A DNA stretch of 36,195 nt from a virus, in IMG/VR virus record IMGVR_UViG_3300032242_001248, positions 1-36,195 of that record. One strand, written 5' to 3'. Positions 1,034 to 17,678 of the stretch are shown here, in pieces; the stretch's first letter is position 1, and the number at the start of each line of letters is the position of its first letter. The notes beneath the pieces are model-generated. The model worked only from the letters and a program-made list of their open reading frames with translations. It ran no database searches and was not told the origin of the DNA. A program made the translations under genes and the position numbers.

Positions 1034-1110
1034 GGGCCGTTAGCTCATTTGGTTAGAGCAGAGGACTCATAATCCTTTGGTGGAGTGTTCGAATCACTCA
1101 CGGCCCACCA
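1034..1110 (+). tRNA. tRNA with CAT anticodon (Met or Ile2)
   Basis: A complete cloverleaf. The acceptor stem is 1034-1040 with 1100-1106. The D arm has GCTC/GAGC, and the anticodon stem is GAGGA/TCCTT around loop CTCATAA, with anticodon CAT at 1068-1070. The T arm is GAGTG/CACTC with a TTCGAAT loop, and CCA is encoded at 1108-1110. The sequence cannot by itself separate elongator Met from Ile2, where the C is modified to lysidine. The T-rich stretch after the anticodon stem is shared with E. coli Ile2 tRNA. Confidence 0.93.
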
Positions 1111-1114
1111 GATC

Positions 1115-1200
1115 GCGACTGTGGTGAAATAGGTAGACACAAGAGACTTAAAATCTCTCGCCCCAAAGGCATGCCGGTTCGATTCCGGCCAGTCGCACCA
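1115..1200 (+). tRNA. tRNA-Leu (TAA)
   Basis: A class II tRNA with a perfect 7-bp acceptor stem (GCGACTG with CAGTCGC), encoded CCA, and a long variable arm (GCC/GGC stem). The anticodon stem is AGAGA/TCTCT around a loop carrying TAA at 1149-1151. The T arm is GCCGG/CCGGC. It begins 4 bases after the preceding tRNA, so the cluster is surely one transcript. Confidence 0.95.
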
Positions 1201-1202
1201 AT

Positions 1203-1279
1203 CTGCCCGTAGCTCAACTGGATAGAGCAACAGCCTTCTAAGCTGTAGGTCGGGGGTTCGAGTCCCTCCGGGCAGGCCA
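1203..1279 (+). tRNA. tRNA-Arg (TCT)
   Basis: The acceptor stem is CTGCCCG/CGGGCAG, with G discriminator and encoded CCA. The anticodon stem ACAGC/GCTGT surrounds CTTCTAA, with TCT at 1237-1239. D arm GCTC/GAGC and T arm GGGGG/CCCTC (one wobble pair). The layout matches E. coli tRNA-Arg(UCU), including the C-terminal G-CCA. It would help decode AGA/AGG codons. Confidence 0.94.
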
Positions 1280-1284
1280 AATTC

Positions 1285-1300
1285 GTTGTAAAAATACAAC
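1285..1300 (+). repeat. perfect hairpin after the tRNA cluster
   Basis: GTTGTA at 1285-1290 and TACAAC at 1295-1300 flank an AAAA loop. It lies 6 bases after the last tRNA. There is no T-run, so it is more likely a processing or stability hairpin than a factor-independent terminator. Confidence 0.5.
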
Positions 1301-1303
1301 AAA

Positions 1304-1339
1304 CTTTTGGTTGACATCTAGTCTAAAAGACAGTATAAT
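1304..1339 (+). promoter_or_regulatory. sigma70 early promoter 4 inside an inverted repeat
   Basis: TTGACA at 1311-1316, 17-base spacer, TATAAT at 1334-1339. CTTTTGG (1304-1310) pairs with CTAAAAG (1323-1329), with one G-T wobble, placing the -35 at the start of the loop. Confidence 0.88.
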
Positions 1340-9127: not shown

Positions 9128-10579
9128 TTATTCTGTACCGTCACCACCTAAGTTATTTAAGAATTGTCGCAGTTTAGTTGAATCAGTTTGTGCCCTAATT
9201 TTGGGCAACGGAGCACCCATTTGTGGATCTGCAATTTCACCAGTTTCTGCATCTACTGCGGCGGGTGCGGTATTTTGACGTTTGATGTTGTCTAGAATAG
9301 CACTGGACTTAGGACGGTAATCTCCATCACTTTGACCATCTTCTCCAGCATCTGTAATGCGAAGTGTGTCTACATCAAACTCTAGATCAATCTTCATGCC
9401 AACACCACTACTACTACGAGTTTTCATCAGTTGAATCTGATACTTGCCACGCTCACGCATAGCTCTACTGGTAAAAATACCAAACACGTTATCCGCAGTT
9501 TGAATCTTACTCAATCCACCAGAGATATGACTGTGATCAAACTCAACTTCTTCTACAGCACCACGATTCAACTGTGCGGCCGTGACGCATACCACATTCT
9601 TTTCCATGGCCAAATTACGCAATTCTTCTGACACAAACTTGTCTTTGATAAACAAGTTTTCTGCTGAAATCTTCTTTGAGATAGGCATTAGCAAGTCCAA
9701 ATAGTCTACTAATAGTATGTCTATCTTCTTGCCTGTTTTGATTTCAAACTCTTTCATGTAACTTCGAATGTCGTTAACAGTCTTGCCCGAGGGCATGTAT
9801 TTTACCTGATATGCGCCGGCTTTCTTGCCAATCATGCGAACCTTCATATCTAGATTATCTATGTCTTTAAATATCTCTTTTGTTGAGATTCCGGTGGTCA
9901 TACTATCAATACGCATAGACACCAATGGTTCTGACAGTTCTAGAGTCAGATAGATAACATTCAAGCCTCCTAGTGCAAAATTCACGCCTAGATTGGCCAA
10001 AAACAGCGATTTTCCAGCTCCAGAACCGCCTGCAAAAATATTTAATTCTCCGCGATTAAATCCGCCGAACAGCCGCTTATCTACAGTATCCCAACCTGTC
10101 TTAACCTGTCCATTTTTATCTTTAAGCCCCATTAGACGTGCTTTAGGATCAGCCCAATAGTCAGTGCCCATATCTTTTTGTAGGCCAATCTGCACGGCTT
10201 TTTTGATCAAATCTTCAACAGGACCATAGTCACCTTTTTCCAACATGTCTGCTGATTCAAGGATGGCTCGTTCAAGTCCCTTGTGCTTGACAAAGGTTTC
10301 GAACTCTGCAAGTAGCCAATCCATGTGTTCATCTTTGAGCATACCCGGATCCTTAAGATCCACATGAGTTGCCGCATTTACCATGTCAAACGTTGGTATG
10401 GCATTGTGTTCAGTTACATAGTTGTTTAGGAACTCTGCAGGTCCTTGTAGTTTGCGATCAAACAGTGAATAATCAAAAATACTTTGACAGCGTACAAATG
10501 TTGCCGCATCTGCCATCATCATTTCCAAGTATAACTTTTGGATATCGTAACCGTAATCTGTGTTTTGTCTTGTTGTCAT
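9128..10579 (-). CDS. gp41: replicative DNA helicase (T4 gp41-like)
   Basis: Encodes 483 residues, close to the 475 of T4 gp41. It is a DnaB-family hexameric helicase that unwinds the lagging-strand template at the fork. The N-terminal helical domain (1-150) precedes a RecA-like core with Walker A GGSGAGKS (about 184-191), Walker B with VDYLD near 291-295, and an SGGLSKIQTADNVF motif late in the core that fits the H4/Arg-finger region. The C-terminal tail is polar and probably disordered. It follows the primase gene by one base, forming the usual primosome pair gp61-gp41. Confidence 0.93.
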   Translation of the reverse strand: MTTRQNTDYGYDIQKLYLEMMMADAATFVRCQSIFDYSLFDRKLQGPAEFLNNYVTEHNAIPTFDMVNAATHVDLKDPGMLKDEHMDWLLAEFETFVKHKGLERAILESADMLEKGDYGPVEDLIKKAVQIGLQKDMGTDYWADPKARLMGLKDKNGQVKTGWDTVDKRLFGGFNRGELNIFAGGSGAGKSLFLANLGVNFALGGLNVIYLTLELSEPLVSMRIDSMTTGISTKEIFKDIDNLDMKVRMIGKKAGAYQVKYMPSGKTVNDIRSYMKEFEIKTGKKIDILLVDYLDLLMPISKKISAENLFIKDKFVSEELRNLAMEKNVVCVTAAQLNRGAVEEVEFDHSHISGGLSKIQTADNVFGIFTSRAMRERGKYQIQLMKTRSSSGVGMKIDLEFDVDTLRITDAGEDGQSDGDYRPKSSAILDNIKRQNTAPAAVDAETGEIADPQMGAPLPKIRAQTDSTKLRQFLNNLGGDGTE

Positions 10580-10580
10580 A

Positions 10581-11549
10581 TTAATCTGTAAACCAATGTT
10601 TCATTCGCAATCTAATCTTTAGTTCCATAGACTCTGCTGCCTGCATAATCAAGTAAGCAGTCCAAAGTTCTCCGTGTTTTCGCAAGGCATCATTTGAATC
10701 TTTAACGCCATCTGCCCAGTCTGGCATACTAACTGACCAACCTAGTTCTATAGCACGTTCTACTGTTCTTGCGCCATCTGCATCACGGTCTGGTACAACA
10801 ATAACTCGCTTGCCCAGACGATTGATCAGCATGGCCTGCTTTTCCATAATGTCTGCGCCCAGTATAGCTACACCGCCTATACTTAATGCATCTAACGGTC
10901 CTTCTGCTACTAATACTACTGGACTATCTGTATTTTGTGCATCTAAATTAAACACATAGCCTGGAGTTTGTTCACTGAGATACTTAGGCTTACCATCTGT
11001 TATCTTACGTCCTGTATAGCCTACAATGCGTCCTTCATAACGGAAGGGTATGATTAATCTATCAGGTAATTCTGGGCTCCACATCCAGTCGCCTCTAATG
11101 TCAAAGCCTCGAGTTAATATATAGTCTGCTACACCAATAACTTCTTCGGGATTCGACATTAGTGCTTGCTCAAGCGTTTGGCAATCTTTTGGTAGTTCTT
11201 TATCAGGTAGTGTAGGAAGGCTAACTGCTTCTAGTGTTTTTTGATCGCTTTCTACCTTAAGTGCTTCTAAACTTATTTTGATAATAGCATCATCTGGTGC
11301 GCCACACCATTCTAAGAACTGTTTCATCTTGCGAGTAAGATGACGTCCATTTACATAACTTGCTTTGAATCCACAGTTGAAGCAGTGATAACTTACACCG
11401 TCGCCATTTCTAATAATACCGCCACGCTGACGTGTATCTGGAGTGTTGCCATTATGGGGACAGCAGACTGCGTTAAACTTAGTCCACCCACTTGGGGTGT
11501 TTTTGCGTTTTGCCGGGAGGTACGAATAGATTGCGTCAACTATACTCAT
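10581..11549 (-). CDS. gp61: DNA primase (T4 gp61-like)
   Basis: Encodes 322 residues (T4 gp61 has 342). The N-terminal zinc-binding domain has Cys29/Cys30, His32, Cys56 and Cys59. The TOPRIM catalytic domain has its glutamate in VAEGPLD (Glu216) and the acidic motif VVPDRDADG (261-269). It synthesises RNA primers with gp41 at the replication fork. A sigma70 promoter (11558-11586) lies so close that the transcript would begin about two bases before the ATG. Confidence 0.93.
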   Translation of the reverse strand: MSIVDAIYSYLPAKRKNTPSGWTKFNAVCCPHNGNTPDTRQRGGIIRNGDGVSYHCFNCGFKASYVNGRHLTRKMKQFLEWCGAPDDAIIKISLEALKVESDQKTLEAVSLPTLPDKELPKDCQTLEQALMSNPEEVIGVADYILTRGFDIRGDWMWSPELPDRLIIPFRYEGRIVGYTGRKITDGKPKYLSEQTPGYVFNLDAQNTDSPVVLVAEGPLDALSIGGVAILGADIMEKQAMLINRLGKRVIVVPDRDADGARTVERAIELGWSVSMPDWADGVKDSNDALRKHGELWTAYLIMQAAESMELKIRLRMKHWFTD

Positions 11550-12426: not shown

Positions 12427-12434
12427 TATTTATG
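12427..12434 (-). promoter_or_regulatory. late promoter box CATAAATA
   Basis: 7 of 8 match to the T4 late box on the minus strand. The box overlaps the start codon of the divergent plus-strand gene at 12432, so late transcription would begin directly beside it. Confidence 0.5.
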
Positions 12435-12806
12435 GTAAAACTTACGGAAGAAATCAGAGAAAACTTCCCTTTTATATCGGTTGTACACTACGGCGGTATT
12501 GAATATGTTGGTGTAGTAATCAATCAAGATCAATATGTAACCAGCATCTATAACTACGAAGAATTACGAACAGAAGCTGATCGTAAAACCTTTTTAGAAT
12601 TAGGTGAAGTATGGTGGTGGGAATCAAATCGCACCATACCTATTAGCATATTCCTAAAACAAGAAATGGAAACATTTCGCTATAGTATTATGACTATGAA
12701 TACTAAAGATGTTACTGTGGTATTTGGGCCAACTGTTAACCTGCATAATATGAGCATCAAGCGTGTAAAACGCAAGATGATACAGCTAGTCCGTCCTAAG
12801 CGTTAA
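12432..12806 (+). CDS. conserved T4-like phage protein, unknown
   Basis: Encodes 124 residues. It is the only plus-strand gene in the replication block. The sequence has an SH3/Sm-like feel in the N-terminal half (IRENFPFISVVHYGGIEYVG), then a WWWES segment near residues 60-64 and a C-terminal KRVKRK basic stretch that could bind RNA or DNA. Close relatives are unnamed proteins of marine T4-like phages. AAGG lies 14 bases upstream, which is a poor ribosome-binding site. Its stop overlaps the stop of the opposite-strand DnaE-like gene by three bases. Confidence 0.8.
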   Translation: MVKLTEEIRENFPFISVVHYGGIEYVGVVINQDQYVTSIYNYEELRTEADRKTFLELGEVWWWESNRTIPISIFLKQEMETFRYSIMTMNTKDVTVVFGPTVNLHNMSIKRVKRKMIQLVRPKR

Positions 12807-13381
12807 CTAAACTCGTAGCTAATGCCTTCGCAAATTAAATTCATCTGCACAACAATAGCCACAGCATAGGCCACAGCGTGAGCCTTCTTAAAGTAGTATT
12901 CATCATCCTCGGGCATCGTCCAGATCGTCTCCATAATCGTCGTCCAACTCTCCCCAATCAAGTGTCTCTTGGCTGGCCTGATCATAGCCAAAACGGCCGC
13001 TAGTTGGAGTACACTCTTCGGCTTCGTCTGCCGTAATATGGCGCCATGACCGTTGACGTGAAATAGTAAACTGCTGAAATCGTCCTGCTCTAAAAGGTCC
13101 CATAATGGTTCAGTCTCCATTAGTTGTTTTAAATGTTCTTCGCTTCGAACACCTTCATAAACACCCACGTTTAGAAAGTCTATTTTAAAGTAACCTCTAT
13201 CTTCTGCTGTTTTATAATCTATGGTTGATAAGTTATTACGTTCGTCCTTGGGAATACTAGTAACATAAATGCCTGTATTGTGTGCCTTAACTTGCCCATT
13301 ATCTAATCTACTGGCTACTGTATGATCAAATAACTCAAGTGCTCGAGTTCTGTCACTAAAGTCAATATCGATATCAGGCAT
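12803..13381 (-). CDS. miniature DnaE-like (PolIII alpha) protein
   Basis: Encodes 192 residues. The order of motifs follows bacterial DNA polymerase III alpha. PDIDIDF (2-8) corresponds to the palm motif holding two catalytic Asp. AHNTGIYV (33-40) corresponds to the HAAGVVI-type motif. GYFKIDFL (63-70) corresponds to KFDFLGL with the third catalytic Asp (Asp68). An LFHVNGHGAIL/AAVLAMIRPAKR stretch (106-139) resembles FQLES...ALVALFRPGPM, and FKKAHAVAYA (164-173) resembles FNKSHAAAYA. The PHP, thumb, most finger and C-terminal domains are absent (E. coli DnaE has over 1100 residues). Activity is unproven. It overlaps the upstream 62-residue gene. Confidence 0.8.
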   Translation of the reverse strand: MPDIDIDFSDRTRALELFDHTVASRLDNGQVKAHNTGIYVTSIPKDERNNLSTIDYKTAEDRGYFKIDFLNVGVYEGVRSEEHLKQLMETEPLWDLLEQDDFSSLLFHVNGHGAILRQTKPKSVLQLAAVLAMIRPAKRHLIGESWTTIMETIWTMPEDDEYYFKKAHAVAYAVAIVVQMNLICEGISYEFS

Positions 13382-13562
13382 CTTTTCCGTCCCATGTGGC
13401 TATCTTTTTCCATTGCAATTTGCCGTCTGTTGTGTACGGCACATAAACTTCACCGGTCTCTTTATCTGCTAACATCCACTTGCCAGGACATTTGGTTTTA
13501 ATTGTCAGCGTCTTGGCTTTTTTTAATTCTTCTGCTGTTGTTCCATCTAGGAGTTTTCTCAT
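13374..13562 (-). CDS. small conserved protein, unknown
   Basis: Encodes 62 residues. The N-terminus is lysine-rich and helical (1-25), followed by a beta-rich part with GKWMLADKETGEVYVPY and a closing Trp/Lys stretch, like a small SH3-type or WD-like sheet. It overlaps the next gene by eight bases and the preceding gene by four (ATGA), so it is made from the same polycistronic mRNA. Function is unknown. Confidence 0.75.
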   Translation of the reverse strand: MRKLLDGTTAEELKKAKTLTIKTKCPGKWMLADKETGEVYVPYTTDGKLQWKKIATWDGKDA

Positions 13563-14296
13563 AATGATCCTTCATCTACTACCTGTTTAACTAGATTTAA
13601 ATCTGCAGGATATGTTCTAAAACGTTTAGACCAAAAGTCGGGATTCATTATTTCAAAAATAATATTTAACTGCTCATCATTAAATTTGCCTAACATACTT
13701 CGTCCGCTTTCACAGTTTAAAACTATCCACGGACTAATCTTACCATCCTTAATATCGTATACTGATCTATTTAAGCTAACATATTTAAAGTAATGATTCC
13801 ACTGACTCTTATTGTTATCTGCCCAATCCATCATAGTAGCAATGCTACGTTGTAGGGCAACTTCAGCAGGTTCTTTTTTAATTAGGTCTAGCACATATTG
13901 ATAATACAGATCTTCTCTACACCAATGATCAAGTTTAATGCCACTAGTTACTACAAAGTCAATATATCGATCCAAGTATAGGGGATTGACATTGTGCAGG
14001 AAACTGCCAAACTTTACAAATGCATTATAGTATTGACTCTTGGCAAATTCTTCATAGGTTTTCGTAGTTTTTGCCTTCTGACTTAGCTGAAAAAATCTAA
14101 TGTAAGTTTGATAGCCTAATTGAACATGTTTTTCAGATTTGGCCATATGACGTCTTTTTTGCTCGCACATATGCACAGCCAAAGTAGATTCCTTAACATA
14201 GGCACTGTTACAATATTGACATACATACGGTTTTTCTACGGCACTCAACTTAAATTTTATTCCCTTGTGTTGTTTTTCAAATACAGTTAAATTCAT
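13559..14296 (-). CDS. C2H2 zinc-finger-bearing conserved phage protein
   Basis: Encodes 245 residues. Near the N-terminus, CQYCNSAYVKESTLAVHMCEQKRRH (about 26-50) has the C-x2-C...H-x-C/H spacing of a C2H2-type zinc finger. The rest is alpha-helical, with recognisable patches (YYNAFVKFGSFL, KLDHWCREDLYYQYVLDL, SPWIVLNCESG). Relatives are common in aquatic T4-like phages but have no assigned role. The finger suggests DNA, RNA or protein binding. Overlapping ATGA junctions on both sides tie it to the DnaE-like gene cluster. Confidence 0.82.
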   Translation of the reverse strand: MNLTVFEKQHKGIKFKLSAVEKPYVCQYCNSAYVKESTLAVHMCEQKRRHMAKSEKHVQLGYQTYIRFFQLSQKAKTTKTYEEFAKSQYYNAFVKFGSFLHNVNPLYLDRYIDFVVTSGIKLDHWCREDLYYQYVLDLIKKEPAEVALQRSIATMMDWADNNKSQWNHYFKYVSLNRSVYDIKDGKISPWIVLNCESGRSMLGKFNDEQLNIIFEIMNPDFWSKRFRTYPADLNLVKQVVDEGSL

Positions 14297-14760
14297 AAGA
14301 TCTTTTTAATTTCTGCATCACTCATTCCAAGATCTCTAGCTAACTCTTTAGCCTCGGCAGTGCTCATGAGTGTTGCTTGTAATTCTAATTCGTCGTCTTT
14401 CATATGCGGATAAACTGATTCTAAAAACTTGTATATCTTGCCGTCGCCGGATTTCTTTTTGTGTCCAATCCATTCATGAAAATAAACTTTTCTTTCGTCA
14501 TTGCCGCACATGGCTAACAAGTACCATAACAGTTTAGGATGTTTACTTAGACTAAAATAGTGCTTGTTGAAGTATTCATTTGTTTTGAAAACTGCTAGTT
14601 CTTGTACATCTCTATTGCTAGTTTTAACAGAACTAGCATATCTGTTCAATAAGAAAAAACTCACCTGTTTGCGTTGTTCTTCATCAAGGTCGTTCCACAG
14701 ATCCCTAGCACCCATATCAATGGCACCAGTTAAATCTTTAATTGCTATTTTATCACTCAT
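14293..14760 (-). CDS. conserved T4-like phage protein, unknown
   Basis: Encodes 155 residues, all helical in appearance. A central KHPKLLWYLLAM segment (about 78-89) and a C-terminal TSTAEAKELARDLG-type helix pattern resemble unnamed proteins of cyanomyoviruses. The arrangement next to replication genes recalls the clamp-loader small subunit gp62, but the sequence does not convincingly match, so that name is not used. Four-base overlaps with both neighbours. Confidence 0.75.
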   Translation of the reverse strand: MSDKIAIKDLTGAIDMGARDLWNDLDEEQRKQVSFFLLNRYASSVKTSNRDVQELAVFKTNEYFNKHYFSLSKHPKLLWYLLAMCGNDERKVYFHEWIGHKKKSGDGKIYKFLESVYPHMKDDELELQATLMSTAEAKELARDLGMSDAEIKKIL

Positions 14761-16217: not shown

Positions 16218-17678
16218 TTATTGCCACGTTACTTTTTCTAAAGTAAACGGATATTTTGCTTCTTTATAAAACTTTTTGCGTTCGGTAAGATGACGCTTGG
16301 CATACTTGCAAGAACTTGTTAGGTCCCAGATCTGTACGAAGTCCTTGTCTTCTGCTTTTCTAATACCTCGCCCAATCGATTGTATAACCCGGACAAAGCT
16401 CTTTCCGGGCTCCAAAAGAACCAGATTAAAAATACGGGGGATATTAAGACCCACAGCGGCCACACCGTAAGTCGCCACAATAACCTTATTAGTACTAGTT
16501 TTAATTTCATCATATTCTTCTTTACGTTCAGTTAATTTAACATCTCCACTGACAAATACTGCATCCGGAATATGATCAATGATAAACTTACCAGACTCAA
16601 TTCTATTGACTAAAATTAAGGTATTGCCGCTTTCTTTAATATTCTTACACAGATTAGAAATGTATGTCATTCTGTCACTGTCAGTTACTAGATACTTTAG
16701 TTCATCTTGGTAACTTCGAAATTCTTGTACGTCTACCATCTGCACAACGTTCACATGACACTGACTTAGCACACCTTTTTCTTGTAGTGCGTGTGCTGAA
16801 ATTCTATTGATAACAGGACCAATTGTGGCCAAAATGCTTTGAAATTCGATGTCTGCTTTAGGCACTGTACCTGTAAGTCCCCAACGAATCGGTGCATTGG
16901 CAAAGTTCATTGACAGTAGTTTTTTTAGTACTTCTGCCTTGGCTTGGTGTACCTCATCAATGATAACACAGACTACGCCATCAATAAACTCTGCCAGAGT
17001 AAGTGCGTCATTTTCTGCACCTTTTTTCTCTAAAATGTTCAAACTTTGCCATGTGCAAATAGTATGTGTTCGACCAATTTCTTTTCTATCGCCAAAGTAA
17101 ACACCAACATCTAAACCAACGTTGACATAGTCTTCTTCAGTTTGCACCACTAGACTTTTGTTAGGCACAATGACCAATGTTCGACCATAAGGTTCGCATA
17201 ATTTACTCAATGTTGCAGTAATAATAGTCTTACCTGCACCAGTTGCTAGCTCTTGCAATCCTTGTGGATGTTCCATGAATCCATTGACTGCCGCCAACTG
17301 ATAATCTCTCAATACAATCGGTTGACCTTCAATAGGATGTCCCTTAGGCCATACTTTGCCTTGATCTGCCCAATAATTTTCTGTGATCTTTTCAAACTCA
17401 AATTTGTGATTTTCTCTTAAATCTTCAACTTCAGCAACATCTACACCACACTCATCAAGGATGGGTAATATAACGTCTAAATGATTGAGATATCCGTTGC
17501 CACCAAGGCCAAAGAAGGTAGTTGTACCATCCCACCGACCAAGTTTATACTGAGGCATGTGTCTTGCATATGGCAATTCAAATTTTAACTTGTTAGAGAT
17601 TTTACGCCTAACCTCAACACTTAGGCCTTCAATTTTTATATTGACTTCATCTCTGATGATTATTTTACAACTGGGCAA
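16218..17678 (-). CDS. uvsW: UvsW-like DNA/RNA-DNA helicase
   Basis: Encodes 486 residues (T4 UvsW about 500). It is a superfamily 2 helicase that unwinds R-loops and branched DNA and shifts replication from origin- to recombination-dependent mode. Motifs: Walker A TGAGKT (146-151), DEVH (241-244), LTGTVPK motif III, and QSIGRGIRK motif VI near the C-terminus. An N-terminal domain (1-110) precedes them, as in T4. The start is a TTG at 17678 with GGGAG nine bases upstream, overlapping the end of the preceding gene by 14 bases. The TTG may limit its translation. Confidence 0.92.
   Translation of the reverse strand: MPSCKIIIRDEVNIKIEGLSVEVRRKISNKLKFELPYARHMPQYKLGRWDGTTTFFGLGGNGYLNHLDVILPILDECGVDVAEVEDLRENHKFEFEKITENYWADQGKVWPKGHPIEGQPIVLRDYQLAAVNGFMEHPQGLQELATGAGKTIITATLSKLCEPYGRTLVIVPNKSLVVQTEEDYVNVGLDVGVYFGDRKEIGRTHTICTWQSLNILEKKGAENDALTLAEFIDGVVCVIIDEVHQAKAEVLKKLLSMNFANAPIRWGLTGTVPKADIEFQSILATIGPVINRISAHALQEKGVLSQCHVNVVQMVDVQEFRSYQDELKYLVTDSDRMTYISNLCKNIKESGNTLILVNRIESGKFIIDHIPDAVFVSGDVKLTERKEEYDEIKTSTNKVIVATYGVAAVGLNIPRIFNLVLLEPGKSFVRVIQSIGRGIRKAEDKDFVQIWDLTSSCKYAKRHLTERKKFYKEAKYPFTLEKVTWQ

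Follow-up and report, generated by a model that had tools for sequence, protein, structure and literature searches.

We propose that a 192-aa open reading frame of an uncultured virus most probably encodes the C-terminal subunit of a minimal C-family DNA polymerase core, made up of two chains and found in T4-related jumbo phages; the assembly of the two chains, their catalysis and their role in the infected cell are what we infer from the comparisons described below. The gene lies in a 36,195-nt stretch of DNA (IMG/VR record IMGVR_UViG_3300032242_001248, hereafter the window), and we refer to its product as the C-half and to the predicted partner chain as the N-half. The proposal is backed by homology, the fold of each half, the complementarity of the halves, their co-occurrence, residue conservation, purifying selection and synteny.

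The C-half and its relation to bacterial DnaE

As shown in Table 1, the C-half is encoded on the minus strand; the plus strand of the same interval is full of stops and holds no open frame. The earlier note on this DNA had described the protein as DnaE-like, with five motifs in the order of PolIII alpha, and we found all five and aligned them in order with residues 400–765 of E. coli DnaE. In the hhalign comparison, residues 161–175 of the C-half paired with DnaE 753–767. The search against PHROG assigned the window protein to phrog_11778, named ‘DNA polymerase’ (1.3e-65), and phrog_405, a 1190-aa phage PolIII-alpha family, also matched it (5e-8). The single window sequence gave weak matches to Pfam (E 0.05 and 0.2, with the match to PF07733 at profile positions 101–114) and none in a phmmer search against the PDB. 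A profile of ten divergent members, compared with PDB sequences, placed M. tuberculosis DnaE1 in the top two positions (E 0.0004 and 0.0012), the best match consisting of four collinear pieces. We found relatives of the C-half in 63 phage records, and at least 556 stretches of IMG/VR contain one. We concluded that the ORF is a real, conserved fragment of the C-family (DnaE/PolIIIα) and that the resemblance goes beyond chance; the case for homology to DnaE rests on family profiles and fold, the single-sequence E-values being weak.

Table 1. Positions in the window of the C-half gene, its motifs and the neighboring genes.
Feature	Position	Strand	Description
C-half of split minimal C-family DNA polymerase	12803..13381	-	192 aa, ATG start; second palm segment, reduced thumb region, compacted fingers
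PDIDIDF, residues 2–8	13358..13378	-	E. coli DnaE PDFDVDF (400–406); D3, D5 = D401, D403
HNTGIYV, residues 34–40	13262..13282	-	E. coli DnaE HAGGVVI (511–517); H34 invariant
KIDFL, residues 66–70	13172..13186	-	E. coli DnaE KFDFL (553–557); D68 = D555
IRPAK, residues 134–138	12968..12982	-	E. coli DnaE fingers FRPGP (638-); I134, R135, P136, K138 invariant
FKKAHAVAYA, residues 164–173	12863..12892	-	E. coli DnaE fingers FNKSHSAAYA (756–765); F164, K165, H168, Y172 invariant
Convergent antisense gene, 124 aa, phrog_11637	12432..12806	+	overlaps C-half 3′ end by 4 bp; invariant WWWESNR core
62-aa ORF	13374..13562	-	overlaps C-half by 8 bp; resembles last 53 residues of phrog_4098
245-aa protein, one N-terminal C2H2-type zinc-finger motif, phrog_11058	13559..14296	-	next to C-half in 80/80 loci
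155-aa protein, phrog_11758	14293..14760	-	present in 78/80 loci
gp61-like primase (Toprim)	10581..11549	-	phrog_47 DNA primase, 5e-37; same orientation in 65 loci
gp41-like replicative helicase	9128..10579	-	phrog_19, 1.3e-63
UvsW-like helicase, other side of cluster	16218..17678	-	phrog_16, 3e-79; 60 loci

The 192 residues consist wholly of palm and fingers segments. Neither a PHP nor an (HhH)2 domain is present, the two domains that make up the conserved DnaE/PolC core together with the polymerase part; little of the thumb remains, and we identified no clamp-binding element in the chain. The GRGS motif, which binds the triphosphate, is likewise absent: the chain starts at the catalytic PDIDIDF and therefore comes without the first palm half that bears GRGS. 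The view that this is a self-contained protein of one-sixth the length of PolIII alpha was not supported, since the missing palm half is supplied by a distant second gene.

Next to the motif alignments stands the predicted structure. The AlphaFold2 model of the C-half, computed from a 67-sequence alignment, had a mean pLDDT of 80.9 and a pTM of 0.66. Foldseek comparison of the model with 350,542 PDB chains gave PolIIIα structures for all of the nine best matches, with E-values of 0.19–1.3 and a probability of up to 0.96. The comparison of fold with DnaE had been suggested in the earlier note, and the predicted structure indeed matched PolIII-alpha first, not an unrelated fold. By VIA-align the model superposed on M. 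tuberculosis DnaE1 with Z 9.0 (3.1 Å over 118 residues), unrelated chains in this comparison reaching down to Z 2.5, and residues 68–190 superposed on the fingers of E. coli DnaE (557–781). The fingers were mostly predicted at a pLDDT of 86–97, while the block means of the palm part (residues 1–40) were 52–67; low confidence in the palm is expected if it requires a partner chain.

Residue conservation was determined in two alignments, one of 67 sequences with relatives 62–84% identical to the window protein and one of ten divergent members down to 38% identity, from phages of Klebsiella, Cronobacter, Pseudomonas, Agrobacterium and Sinorhizobium. The three catalytic aspartates that had been reported as apparently present are indeed there: D3, D5 and D68 (E. 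coli D401, D403 and D555) are invariant, with no loss in any of the relatives aligned. Also invariant in both alignments are D7, H34, K66, R135, P136, K138, K165, H168 and Y172. The median dN/dS of the C-half over 117 pairs was 0.106, indicative of strong purifying selection.

The proposed partner chain and active site

When five jumbo phages carrying the C-half were searched with phrog_405, a second small ORF of ~170 aa was found in each of them. This N-half belongs to a family matched by phrog_11127 (9.4e-43 for the member compared), and PF07733 was matched by 10 out of 10 members scanned, the best at 4.7e-12 over profile positions 12–94. On E. coli DnaE, hhalign placed the N-half at residues 319–393. 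Its AlphaFold2 model reached a pLDDT of 90.3, ranks 1–18 of the Foldseek search were all occupied by C-family polymerases, and VIA aligned the model with E. coli DnaE 271–393 at Z up to 12.3. GRGS (G136, R137, G138 and S139) is invariant in 56 N-half sequences. The N-half of phage GAP32 ends in ...WGLGRGSSVSSYCLYLIGLHLVDSIKYDLDVNEFLKW-stop, which corresponds to the DnaE segment directly before PDFDVDF. Since the N-half ends before the point at which the C-half starts (PF07733 position 101, DnaE residue 400), the halves are complementary, do not overlap and meet at ~393/400. In a joint alignment of the split halves with 17 DnaE-like polymerases, all core motifs lined up. At two of the N-half loci (L116, L117), we noted by eye an adjoining small gene together with apparent co-chaperonin-like (gp31/GroES type) and MazG-like genes.

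Based on these comparisons, we propose that the N-half would supply the first palm segment with GRGS, the motif by which palms of the PolIII-alpha/Pol-beta type hold the triphosphate of the incoming nucleotide, and the C-half the three metal-binding aspartates D3, D5 and D68 as well as the fingers for template and nucleotide. Non-covalent association of the two chains would then create a single Pol-beta-like nucleotidyltransferase site, which would add nucleotides to a DNA end. The PHP domain, the full thumb, the clamp-binding (HhH)2 domain, the OB domain and the tau-binding domain are all absent, so that the enzyme would depend on other phage proteins for processivity and targeting. These are probably encoded nearby, the candidates being UvsW, the zinc-finger protein, gp61, gp41 and gp32. 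While the family-B polymerase acts as the main replicase, such an enzyme may fill gaps, carry out short-patch, repair or recombination-coupled synthesis, or bypass lesions. The presence of a family-B polymerase in these phages, asserted in the earlier note, was borne out, as PF00136 was detected in all nine related records searched (5/5 isolated phages and 4/4 contigs).

A complex with the same C-family site might instead carry out a non-templated reaction, namely the tailing of ends, the nucleotidylation of a protein or a small molecule, or regulatory binding of NTPs. Many members of the Pol-beta superfamily are nucleotidyltransferases other than polymerases, the split form lacks the thumb as well as every processivity domain, and a full family-B polymerase is already at hand, all of which would suit this reading. 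Yet the fingers specific to the C-family are kept and form the best-predicted part of the C-half model, their residues RP.K and K..H..Y are invariant, and the genes sit with replication genes, so we regard a non-templated function as unlikely.

Both halves were found in 60 of the 61 C-half-bearing phage records compared, the exception being a 109-kb partial record; these records are related and so phylogenetically non-independent, and the hypergeometric figure for the association overstates their independence. We also searched IMG/VR contigs that encode close relatives of the C-half: both halves were present in the four longest (4/4, 210–365 kb), and the N-half was absent from the five shorter ones (98–150 kb), as may happen with fragments. 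An HMM search did not find the N-half in the 36-kb window; the window being a fragment, its missing N-half cannot decide whether the partner is present. Relatives of the C-half also occurred in 3 of about 85,000 bacterial metagenome-assembled genomes (L284, L285 and L286, with the labels Pelagibacter, Verrucomicrobia and Rickettsiales), probably phage contigs binned with bacteria.

One point against the two-chain model is the position of the genes, which lie far apart, an unusual arrangement for obligate subunits. The distance between the halves along the genome was 14 kb at its shortest, with a median of 34 kb and a maximum of 224 kb. We observed neither fused nor adjacent halves: the N-half was absent from 80 C-half loci and the C-half from 94 N-half loci. 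An alternative is that the mature enzyme is a single chain, its gene being broken by a split intein or only apparently, by a sequencing or assembly artefact. Split inteins are known to break cyanobacterial DnaE as well as the family-B polymerase of the relative MIJ3 (PMC6892783), and these are the precedents for the first of the two explanations. Neither of the frames leaves room for an intein, however, because in the window only 6 residues are open upstream of the C-half methionine and the aligned N-half sequences stop within 0–2 residues of EFL; an artefact is countered by the recurrence of the same architecture in many independent genomes. We therefore consider a single mature chain highly improbable.

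Two further explanations had been raised in the earlier note, that the protein mimics or poisons the host replicase and that it is a repurposed relic. A fragment that replaces DnaE in the host holoenzyme or competes with it would be expected to resemble part of host DnaE, as the C-half does, and would make sense in phages that use their own family-B polymerase. Particular regions of DnaE contact beta, tau and epsilon, and the C-half lacks them; moreover, a decoy should not need to keep its catalytic residues invariant, the C-half is accompanied by a second conserved half, and it belongs to a divergent phage clade rather than to host-like DnaE. Decay of a captured full-length dnaE would account for the shortness of the protein and its missing domains, but not for the dN/dS value given above, the invariant catalytic residues or the finding of relatives in hundreds of contigs at a nearly constant length, with both halves retained together. 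A conserved partner half, catalytic residues invariant in both halves and a dN/dS of about 0.1 are not what a mimic, poison or relic would lead one to predict. We judge a decoy very improbable and a decaying relic hardly credible. The third proposal, a minimal nucleotidyltransferase with a multi-protein function, pointed in the right direction, although not as a stand-alone enzyme, the partner half being encoded by a distant gene. The former interpretation is partly supported; instead of a mini-DnaE that stands alone, we read the protein as the C-terminal half of an already predicted two-gene minimal Pol III.

Genes surrounding the C-half

The loci of 80 relatives were compared for the genes next to the C-half. 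The convergent phrog_11637 gene adjoined it in 75/80 loci, always on the opposite strand, and its 124-aa product had no credible match in the PDB (best E 0.035). The 62-aa ORF was recognized in only 23/80 loci; phrog_4098, which it resembles only over the last 53 residues, is a 559-aa family. In the 245-aa zinc-finger protein the remaining ~190 aa are strongly conserved, and PDB zinc-finger matches were confined to the finger itself; it is a candidate partner or targeting factor for the C-half. The overlap of the C-half with this gene, mentioned in the earlier note, was not confirmed: the zinc-finger gene overlaps the 62-aa ORF, and it is with the latter and with the phrog_11637 gene that the C-half overlaps. 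The 155-aa neighbor was considered as a clamp-loader small subunit (gp62), and was dropped as a candidate for that subunit after a PDB profile search gave nothing credible.

Homologues of gp61, gp41 and UvsW share the strand of the C-half in most of the loci that are long enough. The order of the cluster is also annotated in RaK2, GAP32, PA5oct-like and Vibrio phages, and part of it in Phosso and Atu_ph07. The conserved neighbors thus place the C-half in a replication/recombination cluster. The window, a fragment of a T4-related phage, also encodes UvsX, UvsY, a gp32-like SSB, a terminase and a tail sheath. Elsewhere in the window, a 90-aa ORF (1045–1317, minus strand) is mostly antisense of three tRNA genes (Met, Leu and Arg, 1034–1279) and is a typical spurious ORF.

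Comparison with known polymerases

With bacterial DnaE and PolC the split phage form shares the two-piece palm, the motifs of the fingers, the three aspartates and the predicted fold of each half. It differs from them in size and number of chains (about 360 aa in two chains vs. ~1000–1400 aa in one), and in that it has no PHP domain, a reduced thumb and no (HhH)2/clamp-binding, OB or tau-binding domain. If active, the enzyme would, to our knowledge, be the smallest C-family polymerase by far (about 360 aa vs. ~1000 or more). Its activity would also mean that nucleotide binding and metal binding in a single active site are divided between separate gene products, and that T4-related jumbo phages run two replicase families at once. 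With an active pair, the contribution of the additional domains of the bacterial replicase could be studied in a simple setting.

Other phage C-family polymerases are divided as well. In mycobacteriophage MrMiyagi, genes 83 and 84 encode such a polymerase in two polypeptides (L290 2412–5602, 600 + 463 aa), an independent split. Unlike the halves described here, these genes are adjacent and overlapping and the enzyme is of full size; gp83 carries both GRGS and PDxDxD, and the polymerase is divided between palm and fingers, past the third aspartate. In Staphylococcus phage S-CoN_Ph11, a C-family-like polymerase is annotated as three consecutive CDSs of 262, 661 and 148 aa (L296 993–4287). Neither matches the present arrangement, the first having a different break and the second three neighboring CDSs.

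In a phylogenetic tree, nine concatenated split pairs grouped in a single clade (100/100), which sits on a very long branch and falls outside the DnaE-like sequences sampled. The tree was built on few alignable columns (262), is unrooted, includes no chromosomal PolC and has poorly supported deeper nodes; its message is limited to the split forms sampled being one lineage. Iyer et al. (PMC7824862) suggested that the form is ancestral. That the two-chain enzyme is the surviving core of the ancestral bacterial replicase, predating the fusion of palm, fingers, PHP and clamp-binding domains into DnaE/PolC, seems to us quite doubtful; the tree speaks neither for nor against it.

The split arrangement itself is already known as a prediction. 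Iyer et al. (2021; PMC7824862) predicted, without experiment, a split minimal Pol III of group 2.2 jumbo phages, and suggested that it makes one strand or serves in repair and that it resembles the ancestral enzyme. Individual annotations had captured parts of the system: the CBB genome paper noted only a truncated α-like N-half and the Atu_ph07 genome paper an α subunit, while PHROG 11778 (C-half) and 11127 (N-half) are both named ‘DNA polymerase’ and are not marked as complementary halves. In the open-access literature, our search found no later experimental work on the split Pol III. The system of Iyer et al. likewise has distant genes for an N-terminal NTP-binding and a C-terminal Mg2+/DNA-template-binding protein, both stand-alone, a family-B polymerase in addition and no further Pol III domains. 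Within that system the window protein corresponds to the C-terminal component, and nothing essential differs. The window adds a member from an uncultured phage, and our analysis the fold matches of the separate halves, residue conservation, co-occurrence counts and synteny. As the two-chain idea has already been published, the value of these results lies in its direct testability in laboratory phages of E. coli, such as relatives of 121Q or PBECO4.
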